Source of the DNA: an uncultured Micrococcaceae bacterium
GTDB taxonomy: Bacteria; Actinomycetota; Actinomycetes; Actinomycetales; Micrococcaceae
Length of the DNA stretch: 64,000 nt
NCBI GenBank assembly: GCA_947502645.1
Contig: CANNAD010000002.1
Coordinates: 124,001-188,000 of the forward strand
Reading direction: 5' to 3'
The notes under the pieces were generated by a model. The model was not told the origin of the DNA, searched no databases, and worked only from the letters and a program-made list of their open reading frames with translations. The translations under genes and the position numbers were made by a program. Every line of letters starts with the position of its first letter. Position 1 is the stretch's first letter. This document shows positions 29,397-38,377 of the stretch, piece by piece.

Positions 29397-29468
29397 TGGG
29401 CGATACTGGGATCGAACCAGTGACCTCTTCCGTGTCAGGGAAGCGCGCTACCGCTGCGCCAATCGCCC
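29397..29468 (-). tRNA. tRNA-Val (GAC)
   Basis: A 72-base cloverleaf with acceptor GGGCGAT, anticodon loop CTGACAC (anticodon GAC) and T arm ACTGGTTCGATCCCAGT. CCA is not encoded. Identical to the copy at 29599-29670. Confidence 0.95.
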
Positions 29469-29494
29469 GGGAATGCAACATTCAAGATGTTCTG

Positions 29495-29571
29495 TGGAGC
29501 GGACGACGGGATTCGAACCCGCGACATCCACCTTGGCAAGGTGGTGCTCTAGCCAGCTGAGCTACGTCCGC
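29495..29571 (-). tRNA. tRNA-Gly (GCC)
   Basis: Acceptor GCGGACG, anticodon loop TTGCCAA (anticodon GCC), T arm with GGTTCGAATCC, discriminator U. Here the CCA end is encoded, unlike in its identical-bodied copy at 29832-29905. Confidence 0.95.
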
Positions 29572-29598
29572 ATGATGTGGTTTCAAAGAACCACATCG

Positions 29599-29670
29599 TG
29601 GGCGATACTGGGATCGAACCAGTGACCTCTTCCGTGTCAGGGAAGCGCGCTACCGCTGCGCCAATCGCCC
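29599..29670 (-). tRNA. tRNA-Val (GAC), second copy
   Basis: Same 72-base sequence as 29397-29468. It is separated from the Gly gene by a 9-bp hairpin at 29574-29597, a likely processing signal. Confidence 0.95.
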
Positions 29671-29696
29671 GTAAGGGTAAAACAAATCCTGCCACG

Positions 29697-29767
29697 AGGT
29701 GGGGACGGGATTCGAACCCGCGTATACGGCTTTGCAGGCCGCTGCCTCGCCTCTCGGCCACCCCACC
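29697..29767 (-). tRNA. tRNA-Cys (GCA)
   Basis: Acceptor GGTGGGG, anticodon loop CTGCAAA (anticodon GCA), discriminator U, T arm GGTTCGAATCC. Single copy in the cluster. Confidence 0.95.
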
Positions 29768-29831
29768 GTGACCTGGCCGGAACCAGGAACGCCATGCCGT
29801 ACGAGACGACGATGGCTGACAGTGACTTGCG

Positions 29832-29905
29832 AGCGGACGACGGGATTCGAACCCGCGACATCCACCTTGGCAAGGTGGTGCTCTAGCCAGCTGAGCTACG
29901 TCCGC
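29832..29905 (-). tRNA. tRNA-Gly (GCC), second copy; first gene of the cluster
   Basis: Same body as 29498-29571 but no encoded CCA. Transcription order is Gly-Cys-Val-Gly-Val. Confidence 0.95.
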
Positions 29906-30037
29906 ATGTTGGCCGCTGATGAACCCAATTACCCGGGTTTCCCCGCGAAGAATCGGTGCTGATCCGCACTTTCCAACGAGTAAGAACAATATATGAGGAA
30001 TGGGGGTTCGTCCAATTGAAGTCTCAGAGACGTGCAA

Positions 30038-30066
30038 TTGTTCATCGACGCCGTCCTGGGTTAGCA
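30038..30066 (+). promoter_or_regulatory. Promoter of tRNA-Val (CAC)
   Basis: TTGTTC, a 17-base spacer and TTAGCA, ending 16 bases before the tRNA 5' end. Confidence 0.5.
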
Positions 30067-30082
30067 TTCTTGGTGCATGTAG

Positions 30083-30154
30083 GGGCGATTGGCGCAGTGG
30101 TAGCGCGCTTCGTTCACACCGAAGAGGTCACTGGTTCGAACCCAGTATCGCCCA
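30083..30154 (+). tRNA. tRNA-Val (CAC)
   Basis: Acceptor GGGCGAT, anticodon loop TTCACAC (anticodon CAC), T arm ACTGGTTCGAACCCAGT. Shares its acceptor, D and T arms with the tRNA-Val (GAC) genes and differs mostly in the anticodon arm, so it is a paralogue. Transcribed away from the cluster; CCA not encoded. Confidence 0.95.
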
Positions 30155-34281: not shown

Positions 34282-34971
34282 ATGGCACATTGCGCTATTC
34301 ATCCGAGCATCCTCAGCGCCGACTTTGTGAATCTGGAGCGGGAACTCGGTCGAATCAGGGGAGCCGACGCCGTCCATGTGGACGTCATGGACAACCATTT
34401 CGTACCGAACCTGACGCTTGGGCTGCCTGTTGTGAAGCGGATCGCAGAATCAACGCAACTGCCAATCGATGCTCATCTCATGATTGAGGATGCAGACCAC
34501 TGGGCCCCCAGATATGCCGAGCTTGGTCTGGCCTCAGTGACTTTTCACGCCGAGGCTGCGCGGGCTCCCATCAAGCTCGCGCGGGATCTGCGGAGCAACG
34601 GGGCCAAGGCCGGAATGGCGCTGCGCCCTGCGACGTCCGTGCTGCCCTACCTGGACATGTTGCCCGAACTGGATCTGCTCCTGATCATGACGGTGGAGCC
34701 AGGGTTCGGGGGCCAGTCTTTCCTTGACCTGACACTGCCCAAGATTCGTACCGCTGCCAGGGCCGCTGCGGACGCAGACCTTGATCTTGCTATCCAGGTT
34801 GACGGCGGTATTTCACTGGAAACCATTGAACGGGCAGCAGAAGCCGGGGCCACGGTCTTCGTTGCCGGTTCCGCCGTATATGGCGCTGAGAGCCCTGAGG
34901 ACGCAGTGGCAGCACTTCGTCGAACAGCGGGATCTGCTGCTGGCGGCACCCCCAGGACGTCGTCGGAATAA
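34282..34971 (+). CDS. rpe: Ribulose-phosphate 3-epimerase
   Basis: 229 residues, TIM barrel. Interconverts ribulose-5-P and xylulose-5-P in the pentose phosphate pathway. Motifs: [33 protein letters not shown] (metal ligands), [24 protein letters not shown] and [10 protein letters not shown]. The ATG comes 9 bases after the rsmB stop. Lies directly before the FMN-riboswitch-controlled operon; ribulose-5-P is the substrate of RibB, so the adjacency makes metabolic sense. Confidence 0.94.
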
Positions 34972-35020
34972 GAAGCGTCCATATCTGCTTCTATGAGATA
35001 ATCAACGCATAACTGCATAC

Positions 35021-35160
35021 ACGTGCTCCGGGGTCGGTGTAATTCCGAACCGGCGGTTATAGTCCGCGACCCGATCAGCAGCGCCCTCAGGGCAACGTTG
35101 GACGGTTGAGCCGGTGAAATTCCGGCACCGACAGTTAAAGTCTGGATGGGAGAAGCACGT
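35021..35160 (+). ncRNA. FMN riboswitch (RFN element)
   Basis: The strand shows the classic element: closing P1 helix ACGTGCT/AGCACGT at its two ends, the conserved CTCCGGGGTCGGTGTAATTC, AACCGGCGGTTATAGTCCGC, GACGGTTGAGCCGGTGAAATT and ACCGACAGTTAAAGTCTGGA stretches in order. Represses riboflavin genes when FMN is bound. A GATAAT box at 34997-35002 could be its promoter. No terminator with a T tract follows, so control of translation start is more likely than transcription attenuation. Confidence 0.96.
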
Positions 35161-35258
35161 ACAGAAGGTCGATGCTTCGGCGCGTTCACTGGACGCTGTC
35201 GAGCCAAAATACCGACCCTGTCGTCACCCCCGGAGCCGCCGCGAAAGGGAAGGACGAA

Positions 35259-35366
35259 ATGAATATTCTGCGGTGGCTCTATAACGCGACCATTCAGCGT
35301 GGCTCAAGCCAGCTGCTGGTCTGTAACAACTCAGAACTTCTGGTCTGTCCGCTGGTGCAACAGTGA
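35259..35366 (+). CDS. Small leader ORF coupled to ribD
   Basis: 35 residues, beginning MNILRWLYNATIQRGS and ending PLVQQ; it contains a repeated QLLVC / ELLVC pattern. GGGAAGGA lies 4 bases before the ATG, a near-perfect ribosome-binding site, and the stop TGA overlaps the ribD GTG (GTGA). The frame remains open back to an ATG at 35172, just after the riboswitch (64 residues, weaker site with a 3-base gap). I recognise no family. The position implies a translational-coupling leader peptide. Confidence 0.5.
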   Translation: MNILRWLYNATIQRGSSQLLVCNNSELLVCPLVQQ

Positions 35367-36445
35367 AGGCCGACGACGCCGGTATCGCGCCGAAGGGTTC
35401 GTCCGCTGTTTCGCCCGAATCGGCTATGGAACGTGCACTGGAGGCGGCCGCGGGCGGTCCGCGCGGCGCCAACCCCCTTGTTGGAGCTGTCCTGACCAGC
35501 GCGGCAGGGGATGTAGTCTCCGTCGGCTGGCATCGAGGCGCTGGAACCGCGCATGCGGAAATTGATGCGCTTCGGCAGGCTTCAGCAGCTGGTATGCCGC
35601 TGGCAGATTGCACCATGTACGTGACGTTGGAGCCCTGCAACCATACTGGGCGGACTGGTCCGTGTTCCGAAGCGATCCGGGCTGCAGGTATCAAAAGAGT
35701 TGTTTACGCAACACCGGACCCACAGGTTCCCGCCAGCGGCGGCGCGCAGTACCTGGAGGCCCATGGAGTCGCCGTCGAGCGTGGCCTTCTGGAAAGTCGT
35801 GCCCGTGCACTGAACCACCGGTGGTTCCTTTCCCGTGCCGAACACCGGCCCTTCGTCACCATCAAGATTGCGCAGACTCTCGATGGATTTCTTGCAGCAG
35901 CGGATGGATCCAGTCAGTGGATCACCGGAAGCGCCGCACGGCAGGACGGTCACAGGCTGCGGCAGCTCGCAGATGCGGTGCTGGTCGGAATGGGAACCGC
36001 TCACACGGACAACCCTCGACTAACGGCGCGGAACGAGGACGGTACGCCGTCTGTTCGCCAGCCTCTTCGTGTAGTGGCCGGACTCCGCGATCTGGGATCG
36101 GGCCTGCAGCTGAGTTCCGATGACGGATCGTCGCTCCATATACGAGAACGGGATCCGAAGCGCATTCTTGATGTTCTGCAACAGCGGGGGATCGGTCATG
36201 TCCTGATTGAGGGCGGTCCCACGATCGCGGGTGCTTTTATCGCTGCCGGAATGGCTGACGAAATATTCGCATACGTAGCACCATCAATCCTCGGCGGAGG
36301 GAAGTCGGCGTTCGCCGGCTTCGCAGCCGATTCAATCCGCGATATCCGTCGGTGGGACTGGGATTCCACCATGAATGGACCAGCCACAAGACTAGGGGCT
36401 GACCTCCGGCTCCATCTGCAGCCGGACGAGAAAGGAACATCCTGA
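35363..36445 (+). CDS. ribD: Bifunctional pyrimidine deaminase/reductase RibD
   Basis: 360 residues. N-terminal cytidine-deaminase-like zinc domain with GTAHAEIDAL and TLEPCNHTGRTGPCSEAI (zinc ligands His and two Cys, catalytic Glu), and a C-terminal reductase domain (about 155-355) with KIAQTLDGFLAAADGSSQWITG and EGGPTIAGAFI. Acts on the second and third steps after GTP cyclohydrolase II. Start GTG at 35363, overlapping the leader ORF stop. Stop overlaps ribE (TGATG). Confidence 0.94.
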   Translation: MKADDAGIAPKGSSAVSPESAMERALEAAAGGPRGANPLVGAVLTSAAGDVVSVGWHRGAGTAHAEIDALRQASAAGMPLADCTMYVTLEPCNHTGRTGPCSEAIRAAGIKRVVYATPDPQVPASGGAQYLEAHGVAVERGLLESRARALNHRWFLSRAEHRPFVTIKIAQTLDGFLAAADGSSQWITGSAARQDGHRLRQLADAVLVGMGTAHTDNPRLTARNEDGTPSVRQPLRVVAGLRDLGSGLQLSSDDGSSLHIRERDPKRILDVLQQRGIGHVLIEGGPTIAGAFIAAGMADEIFAYVAPSILGGGKSAFAGFAADSIRDIRRWDWDSTMNGPATRLGADLRLHLQPDEKGTS

Positions 36446-37077
36446 TGTTTACAGGAATTGTCAGCGAACAGGGACGGGTCATCAAGACCGGACAATCCGC
36501 TTCGGAGGCTGTTACAGAATTGGTGTTCGATGCACCAGAGACATCGAAGGGGCTGGCCCTTGGGGGGTCCATAGCCGTGAACGGGGTATGCCTCAGCGCG
36601 ACGACGATCGACGGGACAGCCATCACTGTGGATGTCATGGGCGAAACGATGCTTCGAACAACAATCGGACAATTGCAGAGCGGTGACGCCGTAAACCTTG
36701 AGCGATGTGTTCCGGCCGGCGGACGTCTGGACGGGCATGTGGTCCAGGGACACGTTGACGGAGTGGGAGTTCTCAGCGACCGCGAGGATCTGGGGCAATG
36801 GGAGCGGGTTCGAATCGGCGTTCCTCCGGCCCTCGCTCGATACATCGCAGAAAAGGGATCGGTTGCCGTCGACGGCGTTTCACTGACCGTGACGGCTGTC
36901 AGCCAGCCCGCGGAGGAGAAGCCCTGGTTCGAGGTCGGACTGATCCCCATCACACTGGCCGAGACCGCGCTCGGATCGCGCTTAATTGGCCATAACGTGA
37001 ACGTCGAAGTGGACGTCCTCGCCAAATACACCGAGCGGTTACTCGCTTTCAACACAACCGAAAGAGATATCTCATGA
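36445..37077 (+). CDS. ribE: Riboflavin synthase alpha chain
   Basis: 210 residues, two repeated lumazine-binding barrels. The first begins [12 protein letters not shown] and has [13 protein letters not shown]; the second starts near 98 with [12 protein letters not shown] and has [13 protein letters not shown]. Dismutates two 6,7-dimethyl-8-ribityllumazines to riboflavin. Overlaps the next start by 4 bases (ATGA). Confidence 0.95.
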
Positions 37078-37727
37078 GTACGGTACTGGATACCGTGGAA
37101 GCCGCTGTAGCTGCGATCGCTGAAGGGCGAGCTGTTGTCGTCGTCGATGACGAGGACAGGGAAAACGAAGGCGACATCATCTTCGCGGCTGAGCACGCAA
37201 CACCGGCCCTGATGGGCTGGACTGTTCGCCATAGCTCGGGTGTGATCTGCCTTCCGATGCCGCAGTCGTACACGGAACGATTGATGCTTCCGGCCATGGT
37301 TGCTGTCAACGAGGACGCAAAGGGCACCGCTTACACCATCTCTTGTGACGCGGCAGACGGTATTACAACGGGAATCAGTGCTTCGGACCGCGCACGGACG
37401 GCCAGGATTCTGGCGGATCCATCCACGGCGCCCTCACAACTGACCCGCCCCGGTCATGTCTTCCCACTGCAGGCAGCGGCAGGAGGCGTCGCCACCCGGC
37501 GCGGCCATACGGAAGCCGCCGTCGAACTTTGTTTACTCGCAGGTGCTGCACCTGTCGGTGTGATCGCCGAGATTGTGCACGACGACGGCGAGATGATGCG
37601 TCTTCCCGACCTTCGCAAATTTGCAGACAGGGAAGGGATTCCGCTGATCTCTATCGAAGATCTCGCGAAGGAGCTGGCGGCTAGACCACTTCGTTCGATG
37701 AATGCCGGAGGAGTGTCATCATCATGA
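37074..37727 (+). CDS. ribB: 3,4-dihydroxy-2-butanone-4-phosphate synthase, stand-alone
   Basis: 217 residues, same length as E. coli RibB. Motifs: [20 protein letters not shown] (metal-binding Glu), [45 protein letters not shown]. Makes the four-carbon unit from ribulose-5-P. In many actinobacteria this domain is fused to GTP cyclohydrolase II as RibBA; here the frame stops and the GTP cyclohydrolase II gene begins by ATGA overlap. Nothing in the domain looks broken. Confidence 0.94.
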
Positions 37728-38377
37728 GCGCCGGAGTTGTGCCGTCACCGTTGATTTCGGGCGGGCCAGTGGTCAGTCTTCCGACACCGTTCGGCCGGTT
37801 CCACGTACAGGTCTGGACTGAGAGCGCCACAGGTGTTGAGCACATGAGTCTCAGTTCTGAACAGGAGTCCGAGGATTCCGGCACCCCGCTGGTTCGTTTA
37901 CATTCTGAGTGTCTTACCGGCGACGTATTTGGTTCCTACCGGTGTGATTGTGGTGAGCAGCTGGACCAGGCTCTGGCCCTGATCTCCCGTCAGGGCGGTA
38001 CCGTGATCTATCTCCGTGGGCAGGAAGGCCGAGGGATCGGGCTCGCCGACAAGGTGCGCGCCTACGCGCTGCAGGAGGAAGGCGCGGATACCGTAGAAGC
38101 CAATGAACAGCTGGGTCTGCCCGTTGATGCGCGTGACTATCAGGCTGCCGCGGAGATTCTTCGAAACCTTGAGCTCGATCACATTGCACTGCTGACAAAC
38201 AACCCGGACAAGGTCAATGCCTTGACCGGCCTGGGCATAACAGTAGACCGCATGGTCGCCAGTGAAGTCCCAGTTCGGGAAGAAAACCGGCGATATCTGG
38301 AGACCAAGCGGGACCGAATGCACCACCGCCTGCTACTGGCCGCGGACTACATCGACGCGCCGATCCGGCAAAGCTAA
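37724..38377 (+). CDS. ribA: GTP cyclohydrolase II
   Basis: 217 residues. Zinc cysteines lie in [17 protein letters not shown] (with the Cys of HSECLTG), then [20 protein letters not shown] and the catalytic [14 protein letters not shown] stretch. Opens GTP to the pyrimidine precursor, the committed step of riboflavin synthesis. The first 35 residues are a linker-like extension as found at the RibBA junction. A stand-alone gene overlapping ribB by 4 bases. Confidence 0.95.

Follow-up and report, generated by a model that had tools for sequence, protein, structure and literature searches.

A remnant of the ribM/pnuX transporter gene as a probable FMN-controlled translational relay to ribD in an uncultured Micrococcaceae bacterium

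The closest described counterpart of the locus analyzed here is the ppe2 B12 riboswitch of Mycobacterium tuberculosis. In the available text of its report, the riboswitch is accompanied by an upstream open reading frame (uORF), uPPE2, which shares an AUGA overlap with the next gene and whose translation that gene needs (PMC11260477). A related arrangement is iraD/CsrA, in which, according to the accessible part of the publication, a short uORF is the target of the regulator, whose effect is carried on to the gene by coupling (PMC5574718). In Actinobacteria, riboflavin operons with an FMN riboswitch and an intact ribM/pnuX gene are described in the available sections of two papers (PMC4418817, PMC3239331). 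We present a riboflavin locus in which a short ORF behind the FMN riboswitch is best explained, on sequence comparison, as a relic of ribM/pnuX that serves as an FMN-controlled relay to ribD, an explanation that we consider likely as a whole.

The window, a 64,000-nucleotide stretch of one contig, contains an FMN riboswitch aptamer (RF00050) at 35019–35162, which cmscan scored at 101.9 bits (E 1.6e-22) compared with a gathering score of 66.2 bits; this and all other features of the locus lie on the plus strand. The gene upstream is rpe (PF00834). An ORF scan confirmed the small ORF that the initial annotation had placed between the riboswitch and ribD: it runs from ATG 35259 to the TGA ending at 35366, 35 codons plus stop, and shares GTGA (35363–35366) with the start of ribD. 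GTG 35363–35365 opens the 360-aa ribD frame (35363–36445), identified by its PF00383 and PF01872 matches. The frame of the short ORF is open further up and comprises 64 codons when read from ATG 35172 to TGA 35364–35366. Duplexes between the 16S tail and the bases preceding the start had energies of -6.8 for ATG 35259 and -2.8 for both ATG 35172 and the ribD GTG. The 64-codon start was dropped for its weak ribosome-binding site, and it is ATG 35259 that corresponds, in the alignment, to the start of ribM in the sister genome. The initial annotation had also assigned ribD little ribosome-binding site of its own, in agreement with the difference of -2.8 versus -6.8, and had ranked the site of the ORF among the best in the window. 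The latter is true in part, as the site is good (top 4%) but not extraordinary, with 242 of 5701 starts on both strands of the window having one at least as strong.

Two further observations concern the surroundings of the locus. Six tRNA genes, all on the minus strand except one on the plus strand, occupy less than 800 bases at 29397–30154, and those at 29498–29571 and 29832–29905 are apparently identical. Two separate genes at 37074–38377, which we take to be ribB-like and ribA-like, overlap by 4 nt; they are also separate in genomes G001, G032, and G008.

The origin of the short ORF was disclosed by the sole other genome of the genus compared (G001), which has a 228-codon gene between the riboswitch and ribD that matches PF04973, a PnuC-family transporter (E 1.2e-45). 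By its position, its riboswitch and the literature, as far as the available sections describe it (PMC4418817, PMC3239331), this gene is ribM/pnuX. Its first codons, MDILRWLFDATIQIGSSQLL, correspond to MNILRWLYNATIQRGSSQLL in the window, and 51 of the first 62 nt are identical (35259–35320). Past this point the alignment breaks down, and 35321–35362 is without clear ribM similarity. The ribM stop of G001 overlaps ribD by GTGA, the same junction as in the window. With 108 nt in the window versus 687 nt in the sister genome, the net loss is 579 nt; the body of ribM is gone, while the platform of the riboswitch, about 20 codons and the GTGA junction are retained. The sequence CTGGTCTGT is present twice in the relic region, at 35316 and 35340, and is perhaps a trace of rearrangement. 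The 51 identical positions and the common junction argue for common descent of the remaining part with G001 ribM, and no Pfam match was obtained for the 35- or the 64-residue ORF. Judged by this comparison, the short ORF is what a deletion has left of the riboflavin-transporter gene ribM/pnuX, a relic and not a member of the PF04973 family, and the earlier view of a novel leader peptide is not supported.

A search of the window genome found no RibM match. Its two PF04973 matches were both below the cut-off, the better one in an FtsW/RodA protein and the other at 11.9 bits, and two ECF families, which hold riboflavin carriers, gave no match. Since the genome is represented by a single assembly and no reads, the loss of ribM could in principle be an assembly error in this one genome; we give this next to no credence, because what is left of the ORF keeps its frame and its GTGA overlap with ribD, and because comparable losses are seen in other genera.

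To place the locus in its family, we collected FMN riboswitches from three sources. The riboswitch was found in 90 of 99 related genomes (96 matches, all fetched). A RibM match was present in 295 of 395 family genomes and absent from 100, and an FMN search run on 94 genomes taken as RibM-less, some of them with weak RibM matches, gave a match in 91, all read; several genomes without RibM, mostly of genus g13, lie outside that search. Nine intact-ribM loci were hand-picked from strong RibM matches. Of these 196 FMN loci, 37 outside the family were left out, and 156 of the remaining 159 had ribD in reach. The three family loci left out on this ground, L019 and L039 (g12) and L020 (g11), have an FMN riboswitch, a RibM match in the genome and no ribD match within the stretch, and are possibly transporter-only loci.

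Intact ribM was present at 53 of the 156 loci and absent from 103. The latter comprised 58 with a short ORF that begins with a ribM-type start, one in which such a start forms an in-frame fusion with ribD, and 44 others. In four genomes (G002, G017, G022, and G049) a RibM match exists elsewhere although ribM is absent at the riboswitch. The 58 relics measure 19–79 codons and are all in one phase with ribD, and the overlap with ribD is 4 nt in 57 of them and 1 nt in one. The letters of the overlap are ATGA in 44, GTGA in eight, TTGA in five (readable as TGATG too), and TGATG in one. As a control, a 4-nt overlap with a start in the ribD frame was seen in none of 103 third-frame ORFs from the same loci. 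The relics represent 19 genus-by-length states, and two phases are open to each because the class leaves out in-frame fusions; the chance of all states agreeing in phase is about (1/2)^18, or some 4 in a million, which is approximate because the states are not fully independent. The same 4-nt overlap with ribD occurs in 33 of 48 intact ribM genes (the other 5 of the 53 lack the start motif as written and fall outside this count), which argues that the junction is older than the ribM losses.

Among the 44 other loci are five very short ORFs at the ribD start (12, 13, 14, 16, and 19 codons), four overlapping ribD by exactly 4 nt and one by 14 nt. In most of the remaining ones, ribD itself seems, by eye, to use the start behind the riboswitch. 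L107, L113, L114, and L155 (g10) have lost the relic, and the apparent start of ribD there is a TTG immediately after the platform. A mechanical rule, taking the first start with a ribosome-binding site after the platform, assigned the 103 loci to 54 ORFs with a 4-nt overlap, 13 cases of ribD itself, 15 other, 19 without an anchor, and two with another overlap, and was too noisy to use.

The losses appear to be repeated. On a RibD tree of 155 of the 156 loci (one was too short), the relic label, carried by 63 loci, needs 12 changes, gains and losses taken together, at least seven of them forced by starred branches; the tree was built quickly and contains long branches, and the exact numbers may change. 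Of the seven genera with relics, g1, g5, g7, g8, g10, and g31 also contain intact ribM, whereas g30 groups with the intact g18, suggesting that ribM was lost in about seven lineages. Intermediate ORFs of 79, 67, 62, and 47 codons, with RibM sequence still visible, were found in g7 and g10.

The initial annotation had proposed a synonymous bias in the frame as its test. The window's genus offers a single relic, and the codon test was carried out on 30 of the 58 relics, the 27-codon ones of g10, 28 of which form 14 close pairs. pN/pS was 0.32 for codons 1–8, 1.05 for codons 9–24, and 1.11 for codons 25–27, whereas the first 100 core ribD codons of these g10 genomes gave 0.11. The proposed bias thus fails beyond codon 8, and the values near 1 indicate a relic peptide without coding constraint beyond its start. 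About two stops were expected in the test and none was seen, a difference that is not significant and partly circular, as only open 27-codon ORFs were taken; the constraint on the frame appears to lie in phase and overlap and not in the absence of stops. All 58 relics have TGG CTC at codons 6–7, and at codon 5 the 45 from g10 share CGA and the 9 from g7 share CAG, which fits a constraint on the RNA.

These data bear on two alternatives. A functional leader peptide, acting through its amino-acid sequence, for example, by ribosome stalling or as a small membrane protein, would account for the open frame, the good ribosome-binding site and the conserved start residues. It is very improbable given the pN/pS of 1.05 at codons 9–24, a value from 14 pairs of one genus other than the window's, and given lengths of 12–79 codons with unrelated sequences in other genera. 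The lack of coding constraint past codon 8 would suit instead a decaying pseudogene without a role, a leftover with ribD started independently, as would the good ribosome-binding site at ribD in some relatives. We consider this unlikely, since the phase is kept throughout the 58 relics and the 4-nt overlap in 57, across 19 states, and since the ribD site of the window is weak (-2.8). In g10, the relic peptide looks irrelevant while its frame is kept.

The platform behind the aptamer, which reaches into the relic, contains two candidate stems. Stem A pairs 35221–35231 with 35247–35257, the latter arm including the ribosome-binding site GGGAAGG (35247–35253), and is proposed to hide this site. 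Stem B pairs 35232–35242 with 35270–35280, inside relic codons 4–8 (LRWL), and appears in both the minimum-energy and the centroid fold. A cross-genus test took a single sequence from each of 23 genera, in three draws; own pairing exceeded cross-genus pairing for stem A (p 1e-4 to 5e-4) and stem B (p 5e-5). For stem B, column shuffles, with L095 left out for want of an anchor, were weak, at 220 of 5000 for all pairs and 954 of 5000 for pairs 7–11; stem A is absent from the predicted folds of the platform, with or without the aptamer. Overall, the platform folds only slightly better than its shuffles (z -1.56; -1.80 with the aptamer).

The segment 35228–35236 is common to stems A and B and is the exact complement of GCTCCGGGG at 35025–35033, in the 5' part of the aptamer. 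This double complementarity underlies the switch model, in which the two segments would form an alternative pairing. The predicted fold of 35019–35300 shows neither the canonical aptamer nor this pairing; the aptamer strand pairs there with another downstream stretch. Stem B is kept in that fold without the proposed pairing, and the ligand-free state therefore differs from the proposed model.

A simple scan of 34950–35500 detected no terminator-like site, which fits translational control. FMN riboswitches of other bacteria work by a terminator, and the riboswitch of the window might do likewise, with the ORF as a passenger of transcription control; in view of the scan, we regard this as quite unlikely. 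Rho-dependent termination could act together with coupling. A terminator-based attenuator of the trpL kind was discarded, there being no terminator-like site and, in the related genus, no coding constraint past codon 8.

We propose that an internal loss took the body of ribM and left its initiation region, about 20 codons, the frame and the stop/start overlap with ribD. Without FMN, 35228–35236 would pair with 35025–35033, so that the relic start is open and the relic translated. On FMN binding, the aptamer would close and free 35228–35236 for stem A, stem B or both, hiding the relic's ribosome-binding site and its start. Ribosomes ending at the relic TGA would restart at the overlapping ribD GTG by termination-reinitiation. 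The control of initiation by FMN is suggested by the anatomy of the platform, and the reinitiation step by the kept phase and overlap. The claim that FMN control acts on the leader and reaches ribD by coupled translation therefore stands in modified form: comparison favors the coupling, the platform points to control at the leader start, and the leader peptide as such gives way to a ribM/pnuX remnant. Coupling as the exclusive route to ribD is another matter. The ribosome-binding site is stronger at the relic than at ribD in only 41 of the 58 relics, which counts against exclusivity; in some relatives, independent initiation at ribD may also occur.

Because the platform extends into the first gene's coding region, loss of ribM would leave a short in-frame stump or ribD on the start of the stump. 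Relatives without ribM probably keep similar stumps because the switch sets where ribosomes start, and these are then passed to the next gene. With some hesitation, we favor the broader view that the family cannot drop ribM cleanly, as the platform reaches its first codons and ribD starts by reinitiation at its stop, and that in about seven genera the transporter collapsed to a contentless relay ORF, as short as 12 codons, retained only for the sake of its start, phase, and stop. If this is true, decay into such relays may be a general fate of genes under translational riboswitches, and the surviving relic lengths are a natural deletion series. It would be a route to a regulatory uORF, in which the loss of a gene with a riboswitch platform leaves a stump that is retained as a relay, and would provide repeated natural experiments on termination-reinitiation and on platforms inside coding sequence. 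It would also caution that a conserved small ORF behind a riboswitch can be a relic with an irrelevant peptide, and it predicts that relic-bearing lineages have lost RibM-type riboflavin uptake.

The published uPPE2 relay makes a riboswitch–uORF relay a known kind of device. Among the open-licence papers listed by our searches, we found no report of one for an FMN riboswitch and none made from a deleted gene; the initial annotation had likewise not seen such coupling through a leader described for this riboswitch. From iraD/CsrA, the proposed relay shares the uORF coupling and differs in that, in the text available, the regulator there is a protein and no riboswitch is involved (PMC5574718). 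It shares its riboswitch family, transporter gene, and riboflavin operon with the FMN riboswitch–ribM/pnuX operons; the transporters are intact in the accessible sections of those papers, whereas only the start and stop of ribM are left in the window (PMC4418817, PMC3239331). Closest is uPPE2, which is described in the available text as a translational off-switch with a uORF that has a ribosome-binding site, an AUGA overlap, a downstream gene without its own site, and termination-reinitiation (PMC11260477). We liken the window to it: here, too, a uORF lies directly behind the riboswitch, its stop overlaps the start of the next gene, and that gene is without a ribosome-binding site of its own (-2.8 versus -6.8), although only 41 of 58 relics in relatives have the stronger site at the relic. 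The uPPE2 relay, which belongs to a B12 riboswitch, is shown by experiment, while that of the window, which would respond to FMN, is suggested by its sequence. Unlike uPPE2 as portrayed in that text, the ORF of the window appears to derive from a deleted transporter gene, and ORFs of its kind are found in several genera.
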